DNA from: a virus
Virus record (IMG/VR): IMGVR_UViG_3300037961_003947
Span: 1-44,081 of that record
Strand: one strand, 5' to 3'
Length of the DNA: 44,081 nt
The translations under genes and the position numbers were made by a program. The notes beneath the pieces were generated by a model. That model saw nothing but the letters and a program-made list of their open reading frames with translations. It ran no database searches and had not been told where the DNA came from. Below are positions 12,994 to 36,300 of the stretch, in pieces. Numbering within the stretch: the stretch's first letter is position 1; every line of letters starts with the position of its first letter.

Positions 12994-15900
12994 TCATTTC
13001 GATCGAGCAGTTGCAAGATAGTCAATGCTCTTGATTCTATATGACGCTCCGCCATTTCCATTCAGTTTTTCTCCGCCCAAAATAGCATACGCTACAACAC
13101 CAGATCCAGTGCTATCTCCACCAGCATTAGTGAATGTAAGTTCGGGATGCAAATCATAAGTATTATCTACCGACTGAACATATCCATATCCACCATTAGT
13201 GATAGTGATAGATTCAACCTGGTCACCTGCTGTTGTCATATTAACAGTTCCTGTTGCTCGAATGTCTGCAATATTCTCAAATGCAACTGTAGGTGTTCCT
13301 GAATAGTTTGTTCCAGCGTCTTGAATATAAACATCCACAACTGTACTATTCTCAGAGAATGTGTAAAAATATCCTGCTTCTCCTTTTGCAACATTACCAG
13401 TATTAAACCGAACAACATCCTTAACTTGAAGAATTTTAGTGGTAGAATCCCAAGAAACAACTGTTGCTCGCACACCAGAAATATCACCAGTCACAACTTC
13501 ATTAACACTAAAGTTTTGACCATTTCCATCCAAAGCATCTAACTGAATATTTAATGTTGATACATGGTCCGTACCTTCACTAAGTCCGCCTGCAGTTGCA
13601 ATATTTGCATATTTAAACGGAACACTAGCATCTTTAACACTATCACCAACCGCTAATAGTGTTGTGTTAGTTCCACCCTGTGTTGCTTCAATACCATAAA
13701 GAGAGTTGTAAATACCACCATCAAGATTAATTTGGTTATTATAATCTGTTCCAGTATTTACCAAATCTGCAATACCATCACCCGCACCATCATTTTCATC
13801 ATTATCTTCAAATGCTCTATCTTGAAGAGTTGCAATGGGCACAGTTAATGTTGTGATCGTAGATCCAGACTCAACTAATACAACATGTGGATCATCTGTT
13901 GCACCACTACTGTTTGAAACTCCCGCATCAAATTGAACTGTAGCATCTTCTGTAGAAGGGATACCACCATCAATAAATGCCAACTCATCAATTTCAAATG
14001 TTAATAATAATTCCCTTGTAGTTGGATTCCAATCATAAACTTTAGCAACTTTATTATTAGCACTTTCAACTCTACGGATAACTCTATCACCGACATTAAA
14101 CTTATATGTTGAGATTCCATCAGAATCATTTTGACCATCATCTAAAATCACTCGTTGGTCATAATTAAAATTGACTCCACGAGTCAATCCACCAAATTTA
14201 CCATCAGTTTTTGAGGTATATGAAATTGTTTCATATCCTAAGATAAACTCACCAGAACCAGGGAAAGATCCTGTATTTTTTACATAAATTTCAGTATCTG
14301 CTGCTCCAACATCATAAGTCAATCCAGTTAAATAAATGTTGGACGCATTATTTGCCTGACGAGCTCTAGTTTTACGTTTAAGATTTACTAATCTTTGGAA
14401 AACTACATTTGGAGGAGAAGTATACCCCTTTCCAGGTTCAGTAACAGTAATTCCTGTAATCTGACCTTGATCAATAGTAGCAACTGCTTTTGCACCAATA
14501 CCCCCACCACCAGTTAATAAAACAAATGGAGGTTCTTGATAAAACTCACCAGCATTTGCGATAGAAACAGAAGTAACTTTTCCTGTTAAATCGACCTTTG
14601 CCGATCCTTGAGCATCTTGTCCGCCGCCACCTTCAAAGATAACAGTTGGAGCACTAGCATAATTTCTACCTTGATTCAATAAAGTCAATCCAGTAACAGT
14701 TTGAACTGTTGGAGTTACAGTTGCACCAGATCCTTCACCACCTAAAATTTTTGCTTGTGCTGGTCCATAATAATTATCACCATTTTTTGTCATCCTAATA
14801 TAAGAAACCGTTCCATCATCAGTAAGAACTACTTCTCCAGCAGCACCATCAGGAAAATCTTGAGTAATTTCGGGAGGAGTATCACCTTCAAAAATAGGTG
14901 TTCCATAAAATTTACGTCCAATGACATATGGATAAACAGGATTTCCACTGCCATCTTCTGTCATAAAATATGCATATGTTCCATTTGGATAGTCTGGTGT
15001 TACAGCAAACTTTCCATTGAACTCGTCGAGTGTACCAACACTAGAGTCATAGATATAATCTTGAACCAAATCTCCAAGAAGATATCCACTCTGAACTGTT
15101 CTCAAACCAAGACCACTAGTTTGATATGCAAAAACATATAAAGTAGTTGGTGCTGTTACTGGTACAGTAATTTGTATTCTCCTTTGCGATGCCGAATTAA
15201 ACCCAGCAATATATGCAGCATAGGTTACTGTAGAACCATCTAGTGTATAAGTAACTCCCAAATCGTACAGAAAGGAAGTGGTTCCAATACTACTAGAAGG
15301 ATGCCATCCACCATCAGTTTCTGAGAAAAGTAAATATTCTCCGTCATTTGATGAATGATCCTGATTAAAGATAAATGTCTTTCCTCTACCTAAAGATAAG
15401 AAATTGGGTCTAGAACCATCAAAAAGGAACTCACCATTAGAAACGGTTACTGCATAAGTTGTTGTAGTTACAGAATTTACAGCAGGTCTTGTACCAGGAA
15501 GTTCTGCTGTGCTTCTTAAACGATGCGAGGAAACTTCTCTAGCAGCATCTCCACTAGAGTTATATCCATAAGGACCATAAATTGGATATCCGTCATAGGA
15601 CATACCAATAATTTTGGAGTGTCCATCAGTATGACGACTGTAATCTAAGGTTGCTCCAGATCCAAAATAATTTTCAACGTAGTAGTTATTAGTTAAAGTC
15701 TCAGCACTAGTATCTGTACTGATAATCATATATCCTTCGTCACCATCCTGACCAGCCATATTTGGATGATTCAGACAATAGTAATAGATCCTACTACTTT
15801 CATCAGCATTCATCATGAATATGGGCATATATTCACTTTCGTAATCTGCCGCTGGTGCTGATGATGATCCAGTGCTTGTGTAGTAAAGAGTGCCAGGAGT

Positions 15901-17121
15901 GTCGTTATGAGTACCGTCAGCAGTTGTACTGAATCTAATCGGATGATTATTATTAGTAGAATCAGATTGATTAAATTTAATCAGATAATTTCTCTTTACT
16001 GTAATATTCTCTGGAGAAAAATAAAATGTTCCTGGTACAAAATTGCCAAATTTTGCAGCATCAGTACCAAAATCAATATAGTATGCATTAAAAACTACTG
16101 GATCTTCCGAAATAGTAAAAGTAAATCCAGTAGATCCTAAACACCTATCATTTTCAGAAAAAGTAGATCCTGTAGATAGATTTCTCAGATATACTCTAGT
16201 TACAACATTCTCTCCATTTCTTACAACTTTAGAAATTTCACCCGTAGCATTACCACCAATTTCATCAATAGTTCTACCAATGGCAATTGTTCCTAAAGTC
16301 TCGTCAACATTTTCAACATCTAAAACTACATTACCATTTTCAACTTTTACATTCCAAGTAAATTGTTTAAATTTACCCCATTGAAACACACTATTTTCAA
16401 GTTTGAATTCATCTAGGGTCTTACTTGTATGATAATACTGAACATTACTATCAGTAACAGTATCATATGAAGTATTATTTTTTACATAATCATATTTTAC
16501 AGAATCAATAGCAAAATTGGTGGGTGCATTTCCTGTTGTACCCCACTCTGGAGTGTGCAAAAGACCACCGTTTGCCAAAATACCAATAACTTTATTATTT
16601 TGCTCTGCTCTAGTTCCAGGATTAGGAGCATCTTTTCCGCCACGGTAGATAAATGTCTGATTTAAATTTCTATCTACAAGAGGTCCACCACCAGGTGCCG
16701 CTTCTGCTTGCGTCCATACAGGTTTAGGATGATTATCTGATTGTATCGTAAGTCTATCCGTGGTTCCAGCAAAAGAACCTGCCGTGGGAGAATTTGGATG
16801 ATTTTGCCAAATTCTGTTGATATCAAAAGAACTTACTACGGTAGGAGTTTCTTGTTCTGGAAAAAATTGTAAACGTAATGGATCATATCCACGACCTCTT
16901 TCAAGAACACGGACATGGATAATCTGACCCGAATCGGCATCGACAATAGGATACAATAAAGCTTCCTGTTCTGGAGTTCCACAACCAGTAACAGTCAATC
17001 TAGGTGGATCTGCAGGATCATATCCTGTTCCACCATCTACTACTTTTATAGCACGAACACCAAAAGTCTCATCAAAGATTGGTTTGATGACGGCACCTGA
17101 CCCAGGAACTTGTCTAGTCAT
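12994..17121 (-). CDS. Virion structural protein with cupredoxin and interrupted YHYH domains (1375 aa)
   Basis: The protein begins with two GSGY-type repeats (GTGYDPADPPRLTV, GRGYDP; residues 30-85). A cupredoxin-like domain follows at about 364-466, with ligands H394 (NNNHPIRFS), C449, H452 and M455 (YYYCLNHPNM), again in amicyanin spacing. A YHYH-like domain starts at about 503 (DGYPIYGPYGY) and resumes at about 671-741 (LDEFNGKFAVTPDYPNG, NPVYPYVIG), split by a second cupredoxin-like fold (about 548-664) that lacks the Cys/His/Met ligands. Four or more GSGY repeats (about 774-914) and beta modules (TEIYVKNTGSFPGSGEFILG) follow, with more GSGY units near the C-terminus. The start is 5 bases after the 406-aa gene stop, so the pair is one operon. 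Baseplate or fibre location is inferred from context. No ribosome-binding site is obvious. Confidence 0.75.
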   Translation of the reverse strand: MTRQVPGSGAVIKPIFDETFGVRAIKVVDGGTGYDPADPPRLTVTGCGTPEQEALLYPIVDADSGQIIHVRVLERGRGYDPLRLQFFPEQETPTVVSSFDINRIWQNHPNSPTAGSFAGTTDRLTIQSDNHPKPVWTQAEAAPGGGPLVDRNLNQTFIYRGGKDAPNPGTRAEQNNKVIGILANGGLLHTPEWGTTGNAPTNFAIDSVKYDYVKNNTSYDTVTDSNVQYYHTSKTLDEFKLENSVFQWGKFKQFTWNVKVENGNVVLDVENVDETLGTIAIGRTIDEIGGNATGEISKVVRNGENVVTRVYLRNLSTGSTFSENDRCLGSTGFTFTISEDPVVFNAYYIDFGTDAAKFGNFVPGTFYFSPENITVKRNYLIKFNQSDSTNNNHPIRFSTTADGTHNDTPGTLYYTSTGSSSAPAADYESEYMPIFMMNADESSRIYYYCLNHPNMAGQDGDEGYMIISTDTSAETLTNNYYVENYFGSGATLDYSRHTDGHSKIIGMSYDGYPIYGPYGYNSSGDAAREVSSHRLRSTAELPGTRPAVNSVTTTTYAVTVSNGEFLFDGSRPNFLSLGRGKTFIFNQDHSSNDGEYLLFSETDGGWHPSSSIGTTSFLYDLGVTYTLDGSTVTYAAYIAGFNSASQRRIQITVPVTAPTTLYVFAYQTSGLGLRTVQSGYLLGDLVQDYIYDSSVGTLDEFNGKFAVTPDYPNGTYAYFMTEDGSGNPVYPYVIGRKFYGTPIFEGDTPPEITQDFPDGAAGEVVLTDDGTVSYIRMTKNGDNYYGPAQAKILGGEGSGATVTPTVQTVTGLTLLNQGRNYASAPTVIFEGGGGQDAQGSAKVDLTGKVTSVSIANAGEFYQEPPFVLLTGGGGIGAKAVATIDQGQITGITVTEPGKGYTSPPNVVFQRLVNLKRKTRARQANNASNIYLTGLTYDVGAADTEIYVKNTGSFPGSGEFILGYETISYTSKTDGKFGGLTRGVNFNYDQRVILDDGQNDSDGISTYKFNVGDRVIRRVESANNKVAKVYDWNPTTRELLLTFEIDELAFIDGGIPSTEDATVQFDAGVSNSSGATDDPHVVLVESGSTITTLTVPIATLQDRAFEDNDENDGAGDGIADLVNTGTDYNNQINLDGGIYNSLYGIEATQGGTNTTLLAVGDSVKDASVPFKYANIATAGGLSEGTDHVSTLNIQLDALDGNGQNFSVNEVVTGDISGVRATVVSWDSTTKILQVKDVVRFNTGNVAKGEAGYFYTFSENSTVVDVYIQDAGTNYSGTPTVAFENIADIRATGTVNMTTAGDQVESITITNGGYGYVQSVDNTYDLHPELTFTNAGGDSTGSGVVAYAILGGEKLNGNGGASYRIKSIDYLATARSK

Positions 17122-17126
17122 TTATA

Positions 17127-18347
17127 TCAGTTTAATACGTTGATGGTTCCATTCATTAATCCATGAATGGTGCATTGATAATAAAGAGTATTTGGAGCAT
17201 CCATTGGAACTGTCCAATATAGAACACTGGTTCCACTACCAGTTTGTCCAGCAGTATATGCAGTTCCAGAAAGACCTGCGGTACTTTGAATTCTAAATGG
17301 GTGTGCATTAGCATTGACACTATTGTCAAATGCATATGTCATACCGCGCATAACATATAATGTGGGATCAGAAGTTGGAGAAGAAAAACCAGGACCATTG
17401 AATGTATACGAGGAAGAACCATCCGCACCAAGTTCCCACCAAGTCATTGGACTGCGAGTAACTACCCAATCTGTACCACTCCAGTACAAGGAATCGCCCT
17501 GAGTAATGCCAGTTACATCAGTATCAGTCAGTGCGGTGAATGTCGTAGTTAAAGTACCATCAAAATTAATTGTGAGAGTATCACCACTAACTGCAGTAGC
17601 AATATTAGTGCCTCCAGCAATTGTCAAAGTATCAGTAGCACTATTTGCTGTTGTATTTCCAGTATCACCAGCAACAGTGGCAAATATATTTTGCTGACCT
17701 GCACCTGCGGCATCATCTGCGGGAACAAAGTTAGTTCCATTCCACTTCAAAACTTGATTATTAGCGGGTGCATTAGTGGTGATATCAACATCAGAAAGAT
17801 CATCAATACTGGAATATTCTGTGAGAAGTTTTGCTCTGGTATCACCAACACCACCAGCAGTAATATTAATATTTACATACGGATTATCATCACCATCTAC
17901 AGTGTAAAAATATCCAGGATATGTTGCAGCAGCAGGAGCATTTCCAACATTACTATATTCATTTTTGTAAGAAATTGTAGAACCAATATCTACATTTCCA
18001 GTTGCGCCATCAAAGGTAGCAGTTTGAGATCCTGCAATAATACGAACATCCCCAGTTCCGTTTGGAACAATACCGATATTTCCATTAGAGGAGGAAACAA
18101 TATTGTTTCCAGCAACATCCAATGCAGAAGTCAATGCATTATAATTGGCAGCAACAAAACTACTGCCATTATATTTCAACACCTGCCCTGTAGCTGGATT
18201 TGAAAGTGATATAGTAAGATTAGTGTTATTGCCTAGGGCAGTATACAATTCATCAAAATTATCATTAATTTTATCACCACCACTTCTCAGTGTATCACCT
18301 GTATTATCATTAGCAGAAGTACCAATGTTTAGGGATTGTTTAGCCAT
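17127..18347 (-). CDS. Baseplate/short-fibre protein: gp9/gp10-like N-terminus with C-terminal cupredoxin domain (406 aa)
   Basis: Residues about 6-41 (NIGTSANDNTGDTLR, then KINDNFDELYTALG) match the N-terminal signature shared by T4 gp9 and gp10, the segment of those proteins that anchors to the wedge. The middle contains two fibre-type repeats (GQVLKYNGSSFVAAN and NQVLKWNGTNFVPAD). Residues about 308-402 form a cupredoxin-like domain with a full type 1 copper ligand set: H349, C392, H395, M398 (YYQCTIHGLM). The C-x2-H-x2-M spacing is that of amicyanin. No signal peptide is present. The gene sits directly after the gp7-like gene and before the 1375-aa gene, with its own late promoter. Attachment to the giant protein by the N-terminus is inferred from the T4 arrangement; actual copper binding is unproven. 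Confidence 0.75.
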   Translation of the reverse strand: MAKQSLNIGTSANDNTGDTLRSGGDKINDNFDELYTALGNNTNLTISLSNPATGQVLKYNGSSFVAANYNALTSALDVAGNNIVSSSNGNIGIVPNGTGDVRIIAGSQTATFDGATGNVDIGSTISYKNEYSNVGNAPAAATYPGYFYTVDGDDNPYVNINITAGGVGDTRAKLLTEYSSIDDLSDVDITTNAPANNQVLKWNGTNFVPADDAAGAGQQNIFATVAGDTGNTTANSATDTLTIAGGTNIATAVSGDTLTINFDGTLTTTFTALTDTDVTGITQGDSLYWSGTDWVVTRSPMTWWELGADGSSSYTFNGPGFSSPTSDPTLYVMRGMTYAFDNSVNANAHPFRIQSTAGLSGTAYTAGQTGSGTSVLYWTVPMDAPNTLYYQCTIHGLMNGTINVLN

Positions 18348-18367: not shown

Positions 18368-18375
18368 TATTTATA
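18368..18375 (-). promoter_or_regulatory. T4-type late promoter upstream of the 406-aa gene
   Basis: The minus strand reads TATAAATA, an exact T4 late consensus, ending 20 bases before the ATG of the 406-aa gene. The stop codon (TAA) of the giant gene lies inside the motif. Confidence 0.75.
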
Positions 18376-21300
18376 GGATCTCTGGATCAATTACTTCTTC
18401 GCCATATTGACTGAGGTCTGGTGCAGTCCAATCATCAGGAACTGTAGTTGCAACACTTACTCCAGGATTCTCATATGAAGAACCTGCGTTTGTTACTGTT
18501 ACACCAGCAACGCCTACAAGTGCCTTAACTTGTCCATCAAATCCAGAGATAGAATCAAGTCTCACAGTGGGTCTAGAAGTATATCCAGATCCACCAGAAG
18601 TAACTTGAACCTTTTCAATTGAACCAGTGGTTAGATTGGCAGTCGCGTTTGCATTTTGTCCGAAGACAGATCCAAGATAATCAAATGTGATTAACGAATT
18701 TGAAGATTCAATAACCGCAACCTCACGATCACTAACTTCACCCTCAATATCAATGAAGTCGCCTGCTTCGATTGGAGGAACAACTTCATCAGAATCAACG
18801 TCTGCCTCAGAACCAACATAAGAGAATGCTACAAATGTAGATCCAAATCTAGGAACTTCCGAGAAGATAATTCTAGAACCAACAATTTCAAAACCAACTC
18901 CAGGTTCTTGAAGAACACCATTGATAGAAACAATAATGTTATTTTCTGGCAGAATTGTAGAAGACTGGATGCCATCTGTCAGAGTGAGTGAATAGAATAC
19001 ATCATTACGCTTGAGGTTAAATGACTGGCGTAAAGAATCGAACTCGAACGAAATATCATCGAGTTGTCTCAACTTACCAAGATAGAATCCTGTGAAAGAT
19101 GCTCCAAGTTCGGGTGCTTCTGTGAATTGAATATTATCCGAGAATGCTGTAAAAGCATTTGTACTACCAGGAGGTTGAAGAACACCGTTGATGAAGATCA
19201 GCATATGACCTGCAGGATCAGGAAGATACTGAGTTCCATTATCAGTAGTAAGTTTAAATGTGGTTTGTGTTCCATCAAACCCTTTAAAGAATCTCTTAAC
19301 TCTTGCTTTGAGTTCCTTTCTTTCAATAATTGCAGATCTATAATCATCAGGACCTCTGAGACCATCTCTGCCAGTAAATGCACCTTTAATATCAGTAAGA
19401 TATAATCTCCTATTTAAAGAAGTTGACTGAATGTCCTGAACGAGAGCAGATCCTGCACCAGCAATTGTTGTCTTAGAACTAGAAGTCGCTCTTCCAGCTA
19501 AAACCTCTCCACTAGCACCATAATCACCAACAACATCATTTGAGGCAATTGTACCTTCAACGGGTACATAGTAAATGTAATTATTATTGGAATCGTACTC
19601 ACTAATAATTCCGTATACATCAGTATCCTGACCACCATTAACAATACGATACAATCTATTACCAACAGTGAATTGATTAAGACTGGAGTCCACGGTGACA
19701 GTCAATCTTACATGACCAGTAGAAGCAATTCTGTCGCCTACGGAAATATCAAGTCCTGCATACTTAGTAACTTCTAGATATTCTCTGGAAGACTCAGGAT
19801 ATACGACACTAGTGCTTTCAAACGATCCAATCAGACTTGCGGTATCAACTGTAAGTCTACCGCCAGTGTTATCTGTTACGGATGCATTATTTTGCGTATA
19901 GGAAACTGGTTCAGCAGTCTCAGTGCTTGTATATCCAAGGAAAGGAATGTCTGCTGAGAAAGATCCCTTCACATCAATTACGTGTAATCTATTTTCAAGA
20001 GCACTAAGAGTAGCAGTTGTAGTATTAGCGCCGCCAACAATAACATCAGAAATCGCCCAAGTTCCACCAGTTACTTCAACATCAAGATACTTATAATTTG
20101 CATCTTCATAGAATCCATAAACAACACCCGTTACATTAGAATCACCTTGCTTAGAAACAGTTTCATTCATGGTATATGGTCCATCAGTGATGTCACCATC
20201 AATTCTAAATCTCTTATAAACCTTAACGACTTTCGCCTCGTTTAATGTGAGTCTTTGAACTTCTGCAGATGCGTCAGATGTAGCAGAATAAATGTAGTCT
20301 GATTGAACCAGTTCTCCAGAAATACCAACGGGGATATCACGATCGCCATAAACTTTAGTTGGAACAGAAATAGCATTATTTTCAGTGATAGTTGTGTAAT
20401 GCTCACTATCGCTCAATTGATTATCAATGATATTCAAACTAGATCTAATTACAGTCATAGCTGTATCAGAATTATAATTTGATGCTACTGCAGAATCATA
20501 GAACTTACTAAATGTAGCGGATGTAGAAGGACTTACTAAAGTATCTGAGAGTGCTCTCTTAGAGAAATCTCTAAGACGCTCAATAGCAAAGGTTTTAATA
20601 TTATATTCACCATTAGTAAAGAATTGTGTGCCAAGAACAGATGTATAAGTTCCTAATGGTTGAGTGGTTAATTTAGCACCCCACACATAGAGACCGTTAT
20701 TTGCTATTCCAGTATGATCTAAAGCACCAACGCTATTGAGAATACTCAGTCTTGTATTAAGTGCTGTGAATCCAAATCCGAAGGTCACTGTCATATAGAT
20801 TCTAAACCATCCACTACCAATGGGAACCATTCCATGATCACTAACGTTAATACCATTAGTAGCAAATACATTGCCAGTCGTACCATCCGTCAAATTAGAA
20901 CTAAATTGAGCGTTTTCAGCACCACTACCTAAACTAACGGTGAATCTAACTCTATCATATTCACCTTTTTTGACAAACATAGAAGATGTAAATCTCTGTT
21001 CTGATTGAGTAGAACCAGTGTCAAATGTATCGTTTGTACTATCAAATTTAATGCTAGTAGAATCAAAGGTGTCAAAAGATGTTAATGTGTAAGCTCTCGT
21101 AATAAAGTGCTCTCCAGCAGATGCGGTAGTATCAACCTTTTCAGCAGTTTGTGTATTGTCAGGAGACAATGCATTATTAGCAGTAACACTACTTAAAGTT
21201 GCTGTCCAGTTTTGATCAAACTGCTCGGGTAAAGTCCAAAGATTAGTGTTATCTACAGATTGACCAATCAGAGAAGTTAGTCCTTGAGCATATTCAAGAG

Positions 21301-24300
21301 TTTTTACATTACTATAATTGTTATAGTATTCATGAGATCCACTAACGCCACCTGTTGCAACAGTTGCTGTTGCGCCAGAAGGTGCTGTTAAATTAGCACC
21401 TGCAGCAAATATAGTTCCAGAAAGACTTCCAATCACCATAACAGATTTGGAGGTGTATAGAACTTTCGCTGTAGTACCACCACTAGTTACAGTTTCACCA
21501 ACGACAAATGTTCCACTAAATGCACTGAATGTTAAAGTGTATGCTGTTTGTGTGTCAACTGTGTTAGATGTGAGATAGTCATATTCAATATTACCGATAA
21601 TGTCATCAATAAATCCATCATAAACCCATGCTCCAGAACCAAATTGTTCGTTAACAAGAGATGCAATTTCTTGCTTGTAGTAATTTTTGTTGTAAACAAG
21701 ATTTTTAACTACACTCTTTGCCTCAGTATCACCTGGGAATAAAGTTGCCAATCCAAAATCAACCAAATCTCTAAATCTGTACCAAACTTCATCAATGTCC
21801 GAAGGGGACTCTGAATCTTGATATGCTGCTATGTTTGTATGTGCTGCTGCATATTGATTTCCAGTAACACTGGAACCATTGTCTCTCAGCAGATTCTTAA
21901 TTGCCTTTTCACCGAGAACTTTAATTTCCTCATGTGCGTGGAAGAATGCATACAATTCATTATTAATTGAAGTAATTTCTTTATTGAAATCTAAGAATTT
22001 CTCCATTTGTGCAATAGAACTGTTATTTCCGCCTGTTTGAAGATCGGAAATTGCAGCAATAATGAAGTCTTCAATATATGTTCTATAAGTTGCCTTTGTA
22101 TAAGTGTGTGAGGAGAATGTGCCGTTAGCAATGGTGTATTGAAGTTCCGTTCCAAGTAATCCAAGACTATTTGCAGAAGAGCGACCTGTGATCTCTTCAG
22201 AAATATACTCTCTATTAAAGTAGAGACGATCTCCTCCAATATTAAAATCATTATTAGTAGGAGCAATAATATCATTAATAGTTGTAATCAGATTGTCAAT
22301 TGCGGTTTTGACATTAGCACAACCACCAGCATCGTTAGTAATACCCCAATCACCAGTAATAATATTATCGGTATTATCATACGTCAAATCGCCAGTGATT
22401 GCTTCTTTTAAATAAACACCAAGTCTGTCGTGAGCGAAAACAGATTGCCAGACTTGAAGTCTGATATGCTGAAGTTCATTTTTGTTATCAACATAGAACT
22501 TAGCAGCTCTAACTGTATTCTTATTGCCACCAAATTCAATATCTTTAGCAATAGCATCAACAATCAATGCCATATCCGTTTTACATCTGAGCGTGCCAGC
22601 TCCAGTGCCATCACCATTTCTGGGCATGTCGTTAGACAAATCAGGATAGCGTTGAATCATATCAAACGCTGCTTTATCAACAATTACTGAATTATTTGAA
22701 CGGATTAAGTTTGCTGCATCACGGAATCTATATTGAGAATCTGCATCAATTTTATTAGAATACAGAGTATCAGTTGCAGCATTATGATATGAAGAAGTAA
22801 ATCCAACTTCATTAAATGCATCAACCGTTCCACCCTGATATTCTCTTGCAGGTTCAACCTTAGTGATGGTTGCAAGGTGATCTACAGGAGTGCCAAGGTT
22901 TGCTTGCTCTAAAGTATCTGTAAGGATATCCAACAGGTTGCTGATGGTGGAATAAACATCAGCACAATCACCCGTGGTATAATTCAGAACCTTAACAGCA
23001 TTTGCAGTAGCACTGACAAATGTATGAGCATAACGCTGACCAACAGGAGAAGCACCGACATTTACAGTAATAGTAGTGCTGGTTCTTGCCTTAACTGCAA
23101 GAACTTTATCATATGCAGTTGTATTACCCTTATCTGGATAAGCAATTTCTCGATCATTGTTATCATCTGCACAAGTAAATGTGATGGAATCACGCTCTAA
23201 TGCAACCAAAGAAGATGTTGTAAGAGAATTTGTTCCAATAGTCAGAACAAGATCACCTGTTGCCGCATCATATGTTGCTCCAGTTGGAGTAAATGTGGTG
23301 TATGTATTATTATTAGAGTCAGTTAAGGTCGAATCAGTGAACTGAGTCAAACCATGATTACCCTGAACAGTCCAGAGAACATTGTTGATGATATATTGAA
23401 GAATCTCTTTGACCTTATCATATGCCCAAACAGTTTCTGTAACTTCAGTGTCAACATGACTGATAGTGATAGGATTCGCAGTTCTATCGACATAGAGAGC
23501 AGAAGCATCCCAAATATGACTATTAGAACCATTACGCATATCTTCAGCAATAGCATCTAAGATATCACGAACATCATCCTCACAATTTACGTTACCGCCA
23601 GGAATAACCAAAGATGAATATTGCTGGGTTAACAGATATACTGCTTCTTTAGCAATAAAGTCTTTGTTAGCAACAATCAGATTCGCAGCATCATAATATC
23701 TGTGTGTCTTACCAGCAAATCCAGTGACAGGGGCAGTTTGATTGTTTGTATTATAAGTTGCAAGAATTGCATCATTGTTAAATTCTTCACCATCGGTCAG
23801 TGACTCACCACCAGACCAATCTTCGGTATAAGTTTGACCATAAGCACCATCAAAGTGCAGAAGCAGTTTGGTATTTGCATCACCTTGGAACATACCCGTG
23901 GGAGCGGTGAAGTTCGCTGTATAACGACCGCTATTGGAAATTCTAAATTCATCAATGTAACCAGGGAAATCAGCAGAAGCATCAAATGCAGCACCGATTC
24001 TGACTGGTTTAGTAGAACCATAGTTACCACTATCAGAGAAATCACTACCTTCTTGAGTCCCGTTAAGGAACATTTTAGTAGTTGTAGAAGTTCTAGAGAC
24101 TGCTACATGATACCAAGTATCAGCGACTAAGTTAGTAGCACCAGTAATAACAACACTACCATTTACATAATACTTGAGGTTTGCACCGTCAAGATACAGA
24201 TATGCAGAAACTTCTGTACCAGTAGTTCTCATATCAAAGATTGCTTTACTTCCAGAAGCAATTGAATTGGGTTTAATCCAACATTCAATAGTATATGCAT

Positions 24301-27300
24301 TAGTTCCAAATCCAAACTCAGTGGAAGTAGCAATGCTCGCATATTCATCAACAGGAACTGCACCAACATTTACAGTAATTGTTGTAGAAGTTGTAGCAGT
24401 AATAGCAAGTGCCGAACTAGATGCTGGGTCAGTAGAACGAGGATATGCTTTATTGGATGTATTATTATCTTGAGCACAAGTAAATACAACACCATTATCG
24501 GCAATTGTTACTGTGTTGCTAGTAGTAAGAGAATGTGTTCCAATATTAAGAACCATGAGACCCGAGAATGGGTCATATGTGGTTCCAGCAGCAGCGGTAA
24601 ACGATCCTGTAGCGCCACCGCCAGCAGTAATTGCATTAGTAACACCACTTACAAACGTATGTGCTGAAGTTCCAGGTGAAAGTGCCAGACAACCAGAACC
24701 ATACCTTTCATTGTAAGTATTAATTGTAGCATTGGTAAATGTTACAGAATGATAGTCCTCACCAGTAGACTTACATCTACCAATCTTACCAAGATAGATG
24801 GTCTGAGTTGCCTGACTATATCCAACAACTTCTGCCTTTGTGTCCAAAGTCCTAATTACATGACCATCGTTTAAGAAACCAGATCCCTGTCTATCAGTAA
24901 AGGTTAGTTTTCTAACCTTGATATCTTCATTTGCTGCAAATTCTGATGTATTAGTTCCATAAGAAATTGTATAATTTCTAATAAATTCATTATTATCAAA
25001 GTCGCCAGTTTGCTGATCGTAAACGATAATATTGTTACTGATAGATTCGCTCGAAGGGAATTGTGCATCAAAAGCAGTAGCATTATCAGTAAAGTCAACA
25101 ATACTTACTTGAGACTTAGAAATATCGTCAATAACTTTATTTGGATAAGTGACAGAAGTCAATCTGTTGAATAATAATCCAAAGAAAGAAGAACCAGAAG
25201 AAATATTAACTTGAGGAATAAACTCTTGAGTTACAGGATCTTGATATGCACTCGTGGAAGTTATACGAGCAACAACACCAGAAGAAGCACCAATAATAAC
25301 ATCATCAAGTTGAATATCGAATAATCCTGGTGTGGACTGATATGTACCTGTGGTTTTACTAAGAGTCAAACTGTTAGTAATCTCAATTGCAGTAGAATAT
25401 ACAGGAGAATTTTCTTGGTGGGAAATTGCTGCTGTTCCAGACTGAGCTCGAGATACTGTTAATGTTGTAGATTGTGATCCATTAGTAACTCCTGTAACAG
25501 TTATAATTTCGGATCTAATTTGATAATTCTCACCTACTTCAAAAGTATTCGCAGGAACGGGAGTTGGAGTTTCGGATGTAGTAGCAATTACCTCTATAGA
25601 AGTAGTTGCAGAACCAATACCATAACGGAGTTCCGCAATAGGTGTTTCTTGACCAGTTTCTAAGTTAATGGTTTCAATTCTTGCAGTATTACCCTCCAAG
25701 TTTGTAACTTGTTCGTTAAAGATAAACAATCCATTATTAACAACATCAGTGATAGTCTGTAAGGTTCCAGAAAATCCTGTGGCACTAACTTGACATTGCT
25801 CACCTGCAATGAAATTACCTTCAGTAACAAATCCACTAATATCGTCACCAGCAACAGTGGTTACAGTGAAACGCGCACTAGATGTAATACCAACGAGAGT
25901 ATTTCCTGCTGTTGGGAAAATACCACTAGTAAATGTGAATCCTAACGTCTTTGTACTAATTTGAGAAATTTGTGCATTGACATATTTGACACTAGCAGGA
26001 GGTTGTGGTGGTTCTGCAAATACAATAGAATCACCTTGAACTTCAAAGGAGGTGTTTGGAGTTTGAGCAACACCATTAAGAACAATCATCAATTGATTAG
26101 CATTAGCGATTACATTTTCGCTGTTAACTGTAAGAGGGAATTGAGTCTTAACACCATCAAACTGATTTGAAATGTCATCCAATCTTTGAACAACTGAAGT
26201 CAAAATATTCTCAGAAGAGGTAAGTCTCTTTTGACGGAATAAAACTTCAGTATTATTAAATTCGGAATAAATCGGTTCTGCTAAAGCAAAACTCTGAATA
26301 TTTGGAACTGTTGCTTCTCTAGCAAGTTCTACAGATTTTGTAAGTTGGAAATCAATCTCTTTATTTGCAGTATATCCATATTCTTCTAAATTGAGTTCAC
26401 CAAATACTTTGAAGGATGCTGGGTGTACATTCTTGATAAGAATATCTTTCCAATCATCAATGGAAACGGAAGATTTAACTGCGTATGAGAAATCTTGATA
26501 GTAATAAGAGTCTTGAATTTTCTGAACAATTTCAGAAGGTTTACCAATGTCATCAATAAATTGACCTGTAGTTTTTGTAATAGAACCAATTTCTAAGACA
26601 CCTTTAGCGATATTTAAATCACTAATTACACCAGAAGATTTAGAGATAGCACCCGAAACACTTTGCCCTTCAGCAAAATCTCCAGTGTAGTCAACAATCT
26701 TAAGAATTCTAGGACCAACTTGCCAACCTTCATTGGTAGAAACAAATCCAGTAGCAGTTGCATTTTCTAAAGAGTCACCTTGATATACAAGTTCACCCTC
26801 TAAGAATGTAGATGTAATTACATTCGCTTCTGCAGTAGCACCAAAAGATTCGGTCAATACTTGTTGTCTACCTGTACCAGCATTGACAAACGAAAGACCA
26901 TCACCAAGTTCAGCATTTGCTGCGGTGATTGCAAGTTTCATTTGGTCATTTTCCAAAGAATTTGCAGATCCAGTAATAGCATAATAAGTTGTGGATCCAT
27001 TTAATCTACCAGTTGCACCAGCAGCAAGGGGGTACTCAATTCCTTGACCAGTATCAACAACATTTAATGTAATCTCAGATCCATTTGCAATTCCATGAGG
27101 GAAGGCAAACTGAAGAAGACCTAAATCAAGGTTAACAACATAGTTGAAAGAAGATCTCAGAGATACCGTAGGTTCGGAAGAATATCCAGCACCAGGATCT
27201 TTAATTACAATCTGATCAATTCTACCGTTTCTAATTGACGCTTCTGCAGTAGCACCACTTCCACCACCACCTGTGATAATAACAGCTGGTGCCTGAGAAT

Positions 27301-30300
27301 AACCAGAACCAGGATCTGTGACAGTAATACTATCAAGAATACTAGTAGAAGTTAATTGAGCATTGATTGGGAATGTAATTTCAGGACGAAGTGTGTAATC
27401 ATGAGTATAATCATAACCAAAATTGTTATTCTTAAGTTTCTTGATTTTACCAACATTGGTTCCTTGAGCAAAAACAGATGCTCCAGTGCCAAATGCAGGG
27501 ATAATAACGTCAACATCAGCACCAGAACCAGTAAGACCAGATCCGAGAATACCTGGAACTGCATCAATATCAATAGATGCAGTTGTATATCCTTTACCAG
27601 GAGAAGTAATAGTTACAGATTGAATTTGACCAGGAATAGTAGTACCTTCATCATCCGTACCATCTGCAACTAGAATCGTAACAAAACCACCTTCACCATC
27701 GCCAGCAATCGGTACAGAATTATACACACCTACCGCATATTCTGTACCAGGATCATTGATTTCAACTCTTTCAATTTTTCTGGATGATTGAATACCAGTA
27801 ACAACAGGTAATTTAGAATAGAATCCACCAGAGTTGATCAATCTGATATCACCAATTGCACCAACTGCTTTTTCAGAACTCGTAGTATAAGAAGTTCTAG
27901 TAATATTGGCATTTCCTTCAGGTTCATTAGCCAATTCAAATTTAAATACAGTTGCACCTTGAGTAATAGTAGCACCAGCAACTGATGTAATACTGAAGGT
28001 TCCCATATAGGGAGAATCTACGATATCAAGATAACTATTTGAATCAATTGGAGAATCATCTCCAGTTCTAGATGGATCGAAGTAATAAGAGATATTAGTT
28101 ACAATATCTCTATCAACTTTTAGTTTTACCGTTGGGTTTGGTTGACCAGCACCAGTAACACCAGGAGTTCCAACTCTTTCAATAGAGTTGAATGAATATT
28201 CAAGTTTAAAGAGATTATCCTTCGAGAATGATAGGTTTGAACCAACCATTGAGGAGTGAGAAACATCAAATAAGTACTGGTGTCCATAGTACATTTTAAG
28301 TACAGGAGATTTAGCAAAGATACTTACATTTGCTGCTGTGGTTGCTGGATCTGTCTGAGCAACGGCATTTAACTTATAAGTAAATTCTCTATTACTTACA
28401 ACCCGATCAACAACAAAAGAACCGTCATATTCATCATATGCAACCGAATTGAGTTGTTGAGTTGGATTACCATCAACCAAAATATTATCACCAACAGAGA
28501 GATAATGTCTATCTCCAGTAATAATGTATACTTCATCTGTATTAGCAACTGCTGTTACCTGAAGAACTTTATCAAGTGTTGCGATGAGAGTAATCTTAGT
28601 TACACCAGTTAAATTAGTAATTTGTGCAGTAGTTTTTGCACTATTAAAACTAATATCACTAGATGTAATATCAACAACAGAACCAGGAATAAAGGAAGAA
28701 GAACCAGAAATCTCTACAATTTTAACACTATAGTGATCTGTATCAAATGGTTTGAATGTTGCAAAACTATCTAAATTTCCGCCACCACCAGTGGCATCAG
28801 TTCTATTCAAATTATAGTCGTCTAAATCAAAGTTAAATGTTCCAGGAGTAGTATTGACAACATCCTTAAATTCATAATCAGAAATCACATTAATATCATT
28901 AGGAACTGGACCTTCAATACCATAGGTGCTCTGTTCACTAAATTGAGATGTAGAAAGTACACCTGTGTTTAAATCATTTGACCACAGATTGTTGTTGACC
29001 GCAAGATATACTTTTTTGTTTGTTCTATCAACTCTTAATACATATCCACTATTTACAAATTGACCAGACGTGTTGTTCAATGTAAGTTTTGAACCAACAG
29101 TAATATTAAAGTCTTGATTAATTGTCAGTTCTTGCACATTGTCAATTTTTGTTGTAGAAGTCGTCTTCATGTAATAACGATTCTTGACAACTGCAGTCAG
29201 TTTAAGTTTTTGAGATCCAGGAGAAGGAACAGTTGCAGTTCTAGAACTCCATTCATCTACACTATATGCTAAAGTTTCTGTACCTTGAGTCAGTGAAGAT
29301 GTGGCATCTTCAAAATCAAGACCTTGAAGACCTACACCACCGAGAGTAAATCCAACATTGCTTACAGTTAATGTTGATCCTGTAACAGGAGTAACTGCGG
29401 TTCTTACAAATCCAATTTGAGTATTGGTTTGCAATCCTTTATCACCAAGTCGTTCAGAATCAGAATCTTTATCAGACTTCAATCCCCAACCAACATAATC
29501 AATATAATCATATCTCTTCAGATTGGTAGTGAACCAAGCATCATCAGTCCAATCATATGCGAGAGCAAAAGTATCTGTAGGAGGCAATGCATCAGCATCA
29601 GAAGGAACTGTTGGAGTTACTGCACGATTTCTCAGACGCAGATTATCAATATATCCTTCTAATTGTTCATTGGAACGGAATTGACCTGTAGTAGCAGATT
29701 TACCAGGAATGTTACCAATATAAAGATCTTTATTACTCAGTGACGTATTAGCAATAGTACCAGTAATAACTGAAATACCATTCACATATACAGTGAATAC
29801 ATTACCATCTTTTTTAACACCAATAAATTGCCAAGAATTATTAGCAAACATTGTGGTGGATACAGACTGGAAAGGACTGCTAGCAGAATTAATTGTTGTT
29901 GAATTATTTGTAACTACTAACTCCAATTTGCCATTTGCATGGTCATAGTATAACCAAAGTCCACCAGTAGCGTCTGTCGCATCACCAATGTTTAATAATG
30001 TATACTCAGTTTGACTATTAGATCTAAAATTAGATCCATCTTTGTACAGCATATACTCAATGGTCCAATTATCATTGAGTTTTGTTCCTAAGGACGCTGC
30101 TGGAACCTTGATAGCGCCATTTACCCAATCTCCGACAGAAGATACTGTAGCGGCATCAAATGTCAGAGAAGCGCCGCCACCGCCGCCTAGGCGTGCATCA
30201 GTAATAGTAAATGTTTCGTCTACAGCATAACCAGAACCAGGATTAACAATAGTAACTGTTGCTGCACCATTAGCAGCAACTACGACGCTAAAGGTAGCAC

Positions 30301-33300
30301 CTGTACCAGAAGCATCTGTACTAAAGTCACCAGTACCAATAGTATATGTTCCTGCAGTTCTAGAAGAATCAGCAGCACTGACTGTATCAATTGTTAAGAG
30401 GCGACCTGCCGTGGCATCCTTACCAAGAATTTTTGCATAACCACCCTCATACTTGACAGAATCACTACCTGTTGCACTAAGAGTGGATAGAGTATAATGA
30501 CCAGTTTTATCAGTAGCATCAGAAGCAAACTCACAAAGCAATTCATTTCTATTCCACTGAGTTTGACCAAATACGTATGGATCTCCAGAGTTATCTACCG
30601 TAATTGCGTGAACAGTAATACCTTCGATGCGATTCTTATCAAAATTATTATTAGTATGTTTTTTCAGTTTACCATCATATCCAATTTTTACACTATCAAC
30701 AAGTTTTTGATTAGTGGTACTATCAGTTCTAGTAAATGCAATATTTAAATCTCCGAAAATATCAATTGTACTTCTAGTGGCAAGTTCAATATTGCTACCA
30801 GATGGAGTGAGATATCTATAATTCCAGAGTAAATCACCACTTGCATCTAATTTACCAACCCAGAAACTATCTTTAGTTGCATTATTGGTCTTAAGAGCCA
30901 AAGTAGCAGTGATATAAAATTCATCGAATTCATCAACTGCTAAACTGGTATTTCTAAAGGAATAAACAGTATTATTAATCTCCTTAATCCATTCAATAGA
31001 GATTGCAGATGTTCCTACGATTGCTTTACCAAAGGCAACTTTAGAATCCGCTGCACCATCAGTAGCAGCAGTTTCCATAATAAAATAAACTGCATCATTA
31101 AGTACAATCAAATCTGTAACTTTCTCAGACCCTGAAGCAGATGCAATCTTTCTCTTAGCAGCAAAATCACCAGTGGAATCAATAGATGCAATAAATGCGT
31201 CTTGGGGATTTGCAGAGTTTGTATTTGTGTAACCACCAATAATATAACGAGTATCGGAATATTTTTTGAGTGTGGTGACATAATCAGCTCTGGTAGAACC
31301 AGAGATACCAGAGTATTCTTTCTGGAAACTAAGTGTTGCACTAAGACCATCGGTGCTTTGTACATACTTTGCAAGAATAATATCAGGATTGTATGCAGCA
31401 TTAACTTGAATATTTGGTCTGGTTTGTCCAACCAACCAAATATTGTCTCCACTAACATCTAATTTTGTAAATTCTGTATAGGTTTGTCCTACGGTGCTTT
31501 CAAGAGTTTTCTCCCACTCCTTAACACCAAGTTCAGAGAATTTTGAAACAAATGCAACTTCATTGTTAGTAGCATCTACAGTTTTTCCACAGAAGAAAAC
31601 TTCTTTGTTATCATTAACAAAAACATCATTAATTTTTACATATTCCTCATGCTCAACTAAAGAAACATAGTAATTTGCTTTTTTGAAGATTTGTGGATGG
31701 GATAAAATAACACGAGGATTTTTAGTATATCCAGATCCAGCATTTACGATGTTAACAGTATCAATAGATCCAACTGTTGTTGTAACTGCCTGAAGTTCTG
31801 CAGATTCACCGTCACCATCAATAATAATTGTGGGAGGAATTTCAGAATCATATCCAGACCCAGTTTGAGTAATTATAATTTCTTCAACACCTTTAAGTTG
31901 TCTGACGACGAAACTCTTATTTGTTTCATCCATTACAGGTGTATAATCAACATATACAGAATCACTTACAATCAAATTGTGAGGAGTCGATGTTGTTAAT
32001 ACGCCATAGAATTTATCTTCAACTGATTCAAACGTATATGCACTAACGGTCTCACCTTTGATTCTAGAGACCCTTGCAGATACACCACTTCCATCAGTAT
32101 CGGAATTGTCGAAGGTAAGGATGTCATTAACCTGGTAACTCTTACCAGCATCTTCAATGATGAATCCTGTTACGGATGCATCTTCAAATTTAGTAGTTGT
32201 TTCAACTTCAATATCAACTTTAGAATCAAATCTAACTTTGGGGAAATAATCAAATAATTGTAATGGAGATTCCTCAAGAATTTGATCAGGATCATCAGTT
32301 TCATCCTGACTGATAACACCATCTCTATTTTCATCTTCTACATCAAATAATAAAATGTCTCCGCTTTCTGTAGTAAGAGAATTTGTTGATACATTTGGTG
32401 CTCTTTCAACATCAATATCAACATTTTCGTAGGGGTCACGATATCTAATAACACCTGTGGGAATATTTTGCTGAATTGCATCTTTATTCAAATTCCAAGA
32501 ATCTACAATGGAATTAAAACTAGGTCCAATTACATAAGGGAATACTGGATTACCATTTTCCGTTGTATCGATAGTAATAAAATAGCAATATCTTCCATCA
32601 GGAAAATCTGGTGTTTTACAGAAACGACCATTATATTGATCCAAATCGCCCAGACCAAAAGAATATTCATAATCTTCAACAAAATTACCAGCAGGTTCAT
32701 CACTCAACGATGGTCCAGCAGATCTAACTGGATTTGGATTGCTAACCGAATCTTCAACAAGATTAGTTTTTAATCTATAAGAAGTATTCAGTCTAACAAT
32801 ATTTGAAGACTGATTCGTTGGATCAACATATCCATAAGGACCATAAATTGGATTACCATCAAATGCCCATCCAATGATTGGAGAGTGTTCTAATTGAGTT
32901 TCTTGCTCTAAAATAGATCCAGTAAGACTTTCAAATAAATTATCACCAAGAATATATCTCAATCTCTGTGGATTGGACAAATGAGCGTATTCACCACCAT
33001 ATTGATTATTATATCCAGCAAACACTGCTCCTTTTGCAGAATCAAATGTTGTGGTTTCTTGAAGGTTATAAGTCCACTTAAAGATATTTGGAGTAAATGT
33101 AGCGCCAGAACCAACAGAAGTCAAATTAATAACTGTAGTTCCCTGAACGTAATTAATACCTCTATTGATAATTTCAATACCAGTTACTCTTCCAGCATTT
33201 TCACCATCAGTGTCAATAGTTGCACGAGCAACTGCACCAAAACCATCACCCTGAATAGTAACCTCAGGAGCAGTCGTATATCCACTACCTGCTGAGATGA

Positions 33301-36300
33301 TAGCAATAGAAATAATTCTACCATTACTTACAATCGCTTGAGCAACTGCTCCAGAACCAGAACTAAGAGTGACAGTTGGATTGGAAGTATAAGATTCACC
33401 ACCATTGGTGATAGCAATAGATTTAACAGGTCCTCTAACAGAAGCAGTTGCTGTAGCACCAGATCCACCACCACCGACAATAGTAATTGTTGGTTGAGAT
33501 GTATATCCTGTACCGTTTGTATTCATAAGAATACTAGATACAACCCCTCTAGTAACAACAGCAGTTGCAGCAGCACCAGATCCGCCACCGCCAACAATTG
33601 AAACAAGAGGAGAAGACGTATAACCACTACCACCATCATTAACAATGATTTCAGTAATAGAACCATTAACAGTTACTGTACCAGCAGCACCTGTACCACC
33701 CCCACCAGAAATAGTAATATTTGGAGGAGATGCTGAATCATATCCAGATCCTGCATTATCAATATTGATTGATGTTACTGGACCAAAAGTTTTTGTAATG
33801 CTGGACTTATAAGACCAAATAGATGTTCCATTAATCCAAGTTCCAATAGCACCAGGAGAAATATTGTTTTTAACCGAAATAGTTTGAGATGCTAATGGGA
33901 ATCTATTAAGTTTACGCTGGTTTCCAGGTAAAAGAGCAGATCCAGGGAAAGGACCAATATTATAGTTTGGAATACCAGTAGATGCCACATAGACATAATT
34001 ATCATTGAAAAAGGTATTCTGAATATTCGTGGTATATGGACCAATAGAATTTAAAACTGCAGTATTATCAGACTTACCTTTATTGAGGTCAACAGAGACA
34101 AGAATATTACCTTGAGGAACTACTTCTGCAGGTTGTGCAAGTTGATATTGGAAAACAGTATCACTATCTCTAGATGTTACCAAGAAGGTTCCATTGAAAA
34201 GAATTGGATTTGCACCGTAAACTGTTACCTGGTCTCCAACCAAAAGACCATGATTATTTTCACAAGTAACTGTAGCAAATCGATTATCAACACCACCAAA
34301 AGCGATATTATCAACTTCAATTAATTTTTTGACATTATACAACCAAGTTTTTAATTGAGGTTTGGTAGATGTACCGCCAAGTTTAGATACTGACAATTTA
34401 TCGCCAGAAAGATAATAAGATCCAGTATCAGTTAAGGTTGTCTGTTGTGCATCAACAATACCTACAATATTAAGAACAACTTCTTGAGCAGTGCCTTTAT
34501 TTACATAAACAACCAAATTAGAAGTTACTTCAGTAGCAGAATCCCAATCTTCAACAATATTATTGACAGAGCGTGTACATTCAATAAACTGGTTTAAAGA
34601 TTTCTCTTTATACTGAATTACTTCTGAGTTACCAATAACAAATTCACCGTTTCTCTCTGGCCAACCAATCGTAGAGTCTACAGTGATAATACTGTCAGTT
34701 GCATTCAAAGGTTCTGCAAGTTTTGTTTTATATGGAACTACAAAACTTCCTTGAATAGTTTCTTCGGAAAGAACTAATTCGTAAAGTTCAACGTTAGAAG
34801 TTTTAATAGAAATAAAGTTTTCAATTAAAGCACTTGCTGCCTGAATATTAGGATCTGCAATACTAGACTCTTGAGTAAGGAGACCATCTTTGATATTAGT
34901 TGGATCACCACTAACTAAGGTTGCACGAAGAATAGTATCAATAGACCAAGTTGCTGCAGATGGTTTTGTAATCTGATCTTTTGGATAAGAAACTGTTACT
35001 TGTTCACCATACAGAAGTTTAAACAAGTATGCAACACTAAAAGAAGTACCTTTAGTAGAATAAAAATCTTTTACCGATTTAATTGCATTTCGTACATCAA
35101 TTTTTTTATAATCAAGTTCAGGAACATCTGGTAAAAACTGTTCTGTGTATTTGTCGAGAAGTCTCTTAACAAATAAAGCATCTAAACATTTTACTTCTGC
35201 ATTCTCCATTGCTGCAGATGCAGTTGTATTATTAGAAAATACTGCGTTTCCACTTTCAGTATATCTTACAATACCACTAGACGCTCTAGCACACCCTTCA
35301 AATTTGGCCTTAGTAAATCCACTTCCTTTTTTAGAAACAGAAAATCCTGTAATTTCATTTAAACCAATTTCAACAGATGCTCTGGCTTCTGGAGGATTTT
35401 GAATAATGATTGATGGTGGATTAGCTGAAGAATATCCACTACCAAAATTAGTGATGTTAATATCAGTAATTCTTCCATTAAAGACTGAAGCAGTTGCTGT
35501 AGCTCCAGTGCCACCGTCTTCTCTATTATCAACAATATAGACAGATGGGACATCATCATATCCAGAACCACCATTAAGTAATTCAACAGATACAATTCTA
35601 CCATCACCATCTACAAGAGTTTCTAATACCTGAGCACCTACGGGATCAACAACAGCAATTCTAGGTACACTAGTATATCCCTGACCAGCATTAATAATAT
35701 TGATAGAAGTAACTTTACCATCAGTAAGAACTGCTTGCAAAACTGCTTTTACAGGATTATTTCCAGTTGGTTCGTCAATATAAATGCTTGGAACCGTTGT
35801 ATATCCAGATCCACCATCTGTTACAGGAATAGTTCCACTAACACTACCATTAGAAAGTGTCACACTTCCTAATTTTGCACCACCTGGTTGTTTAAACGAA
35901 ACCCTAGGAGTAAAAGTATATCCGCTGCCCGAATTTTCAATTTCAATACTAGAAACTGAACCATTTGTAACAATTGCCTTTAATTTGGCATTTTTAGAAT
36001 CAGACGTTGTAGAAGACTGAACAACTACCTCTGGGGGGTTGGTATCACTATACCCCCTTCCGCCGTCAAGTAAAACAGAATTTTTAACACCATTTACAAG
36101 TGCTGTGGCTGCTGCACCAGATCCTGTATCAACACCTGTAATAGTAACTTTAGGAGGATATTTGTACTCATACCCAGAACCTGTAGAATTGATACTAATA
36201 GAATCTAATTCACCAGAATTACTAATACGAGCATAACCAACAGCACCAGAACCAAAATCTGGAATGGGTGCTTCAATAGAATACAGAGATAAAATTCTAC

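Follow-up and report, generated by a model that had tools for sequence, protein, structure and literature searches.

A predicted type 1 copper site in the cupredoxin-like domain of a gp9-like baseplate protein of marine cyanophages

The metals described so far in phage tails are mainly iron, found in fibers and spike tips, and zinc. Cupredoxins are an old subject, the carriage of petE by cyanophages is already known (PMC2984593), and so is iron in phage tails, where metal-coordinating residues occur as HxH motifs in T4 gp37 and Alteromonas phage R22Y (PMC11705849). In those motifs paired histidines hold iron in a fiber trimer, whereas the phage domain described here has a predicted mixed His2-Cys-Met site in a single domain. 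Amicyanin (TIGR02657; PDB 1AAC and others) has the same C-x2-H-x2-M loop and upstream His as the phage domain, with ligands His53, Cys92, His95, and Met98 (PMC12723479), but it works as a free protein that carries electrons for methylamine dehydrogenase, while the phage domain forms the C-terminal part of a putative virion protein. The C-terminal type 1 domain of the three-domain nitrite reductase TsNirK (6HBE) is, similarly, a cupredoxin fused to a trimeric protein, and its ligands, H390, C428, H431, and M434, have a loop spacing equal to that of the phage domain (PMC6400189); it operates within the electron path of the enzyme, however, whereas the phage protein has no known catalytic copper partner. 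Plastocyanin, including the cyanophage petE product, also is a cupredoxin with His, Cys, His, and Met, but petE is a metabolic gene, while the phage domain belongs to a baseplate protein. Finally, T4 gp9, the tail fiber connector, and gp10 resemble the phage protein in their N-terminal region, and the phage gene adjoins that of a gp8-like protein, but the sequence match ends after the N-terminal region and a cupredoxin occupies the C-terminal place.

The window, by which we mean the whole stretch of DNA analyzed, is a virus record of 44,081 bases with genes that match T4-like cyanophage families of baseplate proteins. An open reading frame on its minus strand (positions 17127 to 18347) encodes a gp9-like protein of 406 amino acids, which is covered entirely by phrog_677, the "baseplate wedge tail fiber protein connector" family (E=5.8e-195). 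Residues 3 to 89 (18081 to 18341, minus strand) match PF07880 (E=2.5e-11) and the T4 gp10 and gp9 chains in the PDB, and this N-terminal match together with the family-level match identifies the protein as gp9/gp10-like, which bears out the N-terminal anchor proposed in the initial annotation. The closest named relatives, at no more than 85% identity, belong to myophages of Synechococcus and Prochlorococcus, among them S-CAM22 and P-SSM7, and tblastn searches of named phages matched the protein in 354 phage records. On the same strand, positions 18371 to 37138 hold a single 6255-aa open reading frame for a giant structural protein of the baseplate type that contains many GSGYT-type repeats. 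Mass spectrometry of purified virions of cyanophage S-SZBM1 detected the ortholog S-SZBM1_206, of which 9 peptides covered 24.9% (PMC9146016). This ortholog carries an intact ligand site; its presence in the particle applies to S-SZBM1, and the 406-aa protein is a putative virion protein. By analogy with T4 gp9, the C-terminal domain would lie at the fiber attachment point.

The C-terminal domain comprises residues 299 to 406 (17130 to 17453, minus strand). Translation of the frame gave the four residues named in the initial annotation, namely, H349 (codon at 17301 to 17303), C392 (17172 to 17174), H395 (17163 to 17165), and M398 (17154 to 17156), which are the candidate first His, Cys, second His, and axial Met ligands; C392 is the only Cys of the protein, and the amicyanin spacing was likewise confirmed. 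With the 406-aa sequence alone, a Pfam search gave no cupredoxin match and left the C-terminal 108 residues without assignment, and the amicyanin model TIGR02657 returned E=0.18 and 12.2 bits, below its cutoff of 110.2. Thus, the domain is amicyanin-like in its ligand loop but is not an amicyanin. The relationship emerged from a profile built from 14 divergent phage copies and run with hmmsearch against the sequences of solved structures in the PDB, which recovered dozens of blue copper chains, including copper nitrite reductases, plastocyanins, amicyanins, rusticyanin, and auracyanin. The best E-value was 1.9e-5 (6hbe), followed by 2.1e-5 for 2plt and 7e-5 for amicyanin, with which the alignment extended over 80 positions. 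PF00127 in turn matched 4 of the 14 divergent members (best E-value, 1.3e-4). Against plastocyanin, the phage His was aligned with the His that we take to be the first copper ligand, and in the alignment to residues 414 to 440 of 6HBE the phage C392, H395, and M398 fell on C428, H431, and M434, which are crystallographic type 1 copper ligands (PMC6400189).

An AlphaFold2 model of the domain (alignment of 56 rows; pLDDT, 96.6; pTM, 0.88) was almost all beta and was predicted to be a Greek-key beta-sandwich. When the model was searched against the PDB with Foldseek, copper nitrite reductase, rusticyanin, and amicyanin were on top with a probability of 1.00. By profile and by predicted fold, the C-terminal domain is therefore related to blue copper proteins, as expected of the cupredoxin superfamily, and it has two His, a Cys, and an axial Met (Gln in some copies) at the aligned ligand positions. 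Several observations were counted against reading it as a copper site. The sequence of the window alone scored below the family thresholds, TM-scores to solved cupredoxins were only about 0.45 to 0.57, the residue after H349 is Pro in contrast to Asn54 of amicyanin, and type 1 proteins usually work in exported compartments, while virion proteins fold in the cytosol.

Conservation was assessed first among 57 distinct close relatives, collected with search peptides that held none of the four ligand residues, and all four were invariant in every one. In the alignment of the 14 divergent copies only seven columns were invariant (G, H, P, Y, C, H, and M), and four of the seven are the ligands, for which simple arithmetic gives a chance of about 1e-5. 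Iteration over all loci enlarged the collection to 377 distinct copies; since some of the search patterns contained ligand residues, these wider counts carry an ascertainment bias, and the unbiased evidence consists of the 57 relatives and the tblastn matches in named phages. The complete set was present in 326 of the 377 copies (321 HCHM and 5 HCHQ), with His, Cys, and His in 326 of 326 among the copies reaching the loop. In five copies (L102, L107, L114, L130, and L138) Gln replaces the axial Met, which is reminiscent of stellacyanin-type sites, and one TsNirK type 1 site has Gln as its axial ligand (PMC6400189). Two of the remaining 51 copies were cut by contig or open reading frame ends, 48 were without the C-H-M loop, and one kept the first His alone. 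The 48 loop-less copies also had lost the first His, which was replaced by Glu, Gln, Asn, Asp, or Lys, so that, with one exception, loss of the site was all or none. Almost every degraded copy represents the second cupredoxin-like domain in the neighboring 1375-aa protein. A site that is either intact or wholly gone is the pattern expected of a metal site. The codons for the ligand His, Cys, and His alternate between synonyms across the copies, which indicates that the residues themselves are under selection, and the equivalent of C392 is the sole Cys in 39 of 47 gp9-like proteins. Homologs that freely lose the Cys, His, or Met, which the initial annotation had named as grounds for abandoning its proposal, were not found at the site of the 406-aa protein. 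A chance motif was ruled out by the invariance of the ligands across 57 and then 326 copies.

The initial annotation had placed this ligand set in a single baseplate protein. The complete set stood up to profile comparison, fold prediction, conservation, and the all-or-none pattern of loss. It is not specific to the 406-aa protein, as the module recurs in marine phage tail proteins. The domain was encoded in 332 phage records by tblastn, every one of which bears the name of Synechococcus or Prochlorococcus or is called a cyanophage or marine virus, and further copies were found in tail fiber and spike proteins of cyanophages, with four in P-SSM2. Structure matches in BFVD included virion proteins with lectin or peptidase parts; "beta-sandwich proteins" of giant viruses (Pithovirus and Marseillevirus) also were among them. 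The sequences compared thus describe a conserved module that is spread widely among the tail proteins of marine phages, is no peculiarity of one window, and probably binds copper. Outside phages, 9 of 198 Bacteroidota genomes contained the module with its ligands kept, and several of these proteins had N termini resembling export signals. The Bacteroidota loci L214 to L221 encode cellular proteins, several with lipoprotein- or secretion-like N termini, and some look fasciclin-like by eye. An origin from a host gene was not supported, as the eight matches in the collection of bacterial and archaeal genomes were gp9-like or other phage-tail-like open reading frames. These eight loci (L175 to L182), filed under names such as Nonlabens xiamenensis and Euryarchaeota TMED129, encode cyanophage-like gp9 or phage-tail-like proteins and, because the module sits in such frames, probably are viral contigs in those assemblies. 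Derivation from phage petE was not supported either, since the module profile does not recover a small petE product in P-SSM2.

Among the long open frames of the window, C-x2-H-x2-M occurred twice, in the 406-aa protein and in the adjoining 1375-aa frame (12994 to 17121, minus strand), which encodes a baseplate wedge protein in the gp10-like position with a YHYH domain (phrog_708 and PF14240). The latter match lies in a second cupredoxin-like domain of the locus, at residues about 360 to 470 (approximately 15712 to 16044, minus strand), with a complete site of H393, C449, H452, and M455. All 60 aligned sequences kept the four residues of this site, which the initial annotation had missed. By profile, the domain is more weakly linked to the gp9 domain (E=2.6e-6 for the gp9-module profile against the P-SSM7 ortholog of the 1375-aa protein), and hhalign gave only 10.5% probability, yet superposed the ligands. 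In two relatives of the 1375-aa protein, L004 (4698 to 5045) and L012 (8868 to 9215), there is an extra copy of the domain with a complete site. The 1375-aa protein also has a degenerate cupredoxin-like domain at approximately residues 550 to 675 (15097 to 15474, minus strand), identified from the copy survey and the model, from which all ligands are gone. A model of residues 341 to 750 had a low mean pLDDT of 57.9 and was used for the ligand-less domain alone, where local values were mostly 61 to 93 and the domain was modeled as folded. Thus, the cupredoxin fold appears to form without the ligands, and where these are retained they must serve some purpose, either stability or chemistry. The ligand-less domain directly precedes the best YHYH match (residues 678 to 723). 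The Pfam match to YHYH comes in two stretches, and the domain has the look of an insertion into it; a zinc site has been predicted in YHYH itself in an analysis of jumbo phages (PMC7824862).

Taken together, we consider it likely that the domain binds copper, as predicted from its sequence and its modeled fold. Our preferred explanation, to which we assign a probability of about 0.65, is that the gp9-like connector holds a single copper ion in its terminal cupredoxin domain, where H349, C392, H395, and M398 form an amicyanin-type type 1 site, and that the metal mainly rigidifies the fiber-facing end. The apoprotein would be made in the host cytosol and would acquire its copper either in that compartment or in seawater once the cell has lysed. 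The metal would then tie the end of the H349 strand to the C-terminal loop and so keep the fiber-facing end of the connector rigid; the occupancy and identity of the metal, the route of its loading, and its structural role are all inferred here. Redox activity may be an extra. As the main function it is unlikely, although the site is complete and of the amicyanin type, as in electron transfer, the adjoining baseplate protein has a second complete site, and the ligands seem dispensable for folding, judging from the ligand-less copy. According to this explanation, reduction or oxidation of the copper at the host surface would alter the domain and help to trigger rearrangement of the baseplate or report a suitable host, but a partner protein, an electron path, and a redox phenotype are all without a known example. 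The same doubt applies to the broadest version, in which T4-like cyanophage virions would be blue copper particles, with some tens of type 1 ions per baseplate (gp9 and its neighbor at T4-like copy numbers), and the redox state would play a part when the phage meets its host, so that the injection machine would respond to redox or to copper.

It is quite unlikely that the domain is metal free, holds zinc, or has its Cys in a disulfide, the residues being kept for folding or packing. A disulfide network is reported in another phage tail (PMC10811340), but none of these roles would demand that two His and a Met be retained alongside the Cys, and they do not agree with the all-or-none loss of the site, with the alignment of the residues to proven copper ligands in solved relatives, or with the Met-to-Gln exchange, which is known in real type 1 sites (PMC6400189). 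The poorest candidate is that a host metal uptake or surface receptor recognizes the copper or the metallated domain, as proposed for fiber iron in the published Trojan Horse hypothesis on iron-binding HxH motifs of marine phage fibers (PMC11705849); the copies in cyanophage tail fiber and spike proteins would fit such a lure, but it is very improbable, as a buried type 1 site grips copper tightly and exposes little and T4 gp9 is a connector and not a receptor-binding tip.

Within the open literature searched, we found no cupredoxin or blue copper domain in phage tails, including a conserved type 1 site in baseplate proteins, and priority for such a domain is not certain. If copper does bind through the four ligands, it should be present in purified virions in stoichiometric amounts, and the domain in isolation should look blue. 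A module that carries no copper-binding annotation for the 406-aa protein in the family libraries searched would then also have a name. Judged from their sequences, marine cyanophages of this kind probably carry protein-bound copper, and type 1 copper in the baseplates of T4-like cyanophages would add a new metal to the virions of very numerous ocean particles.
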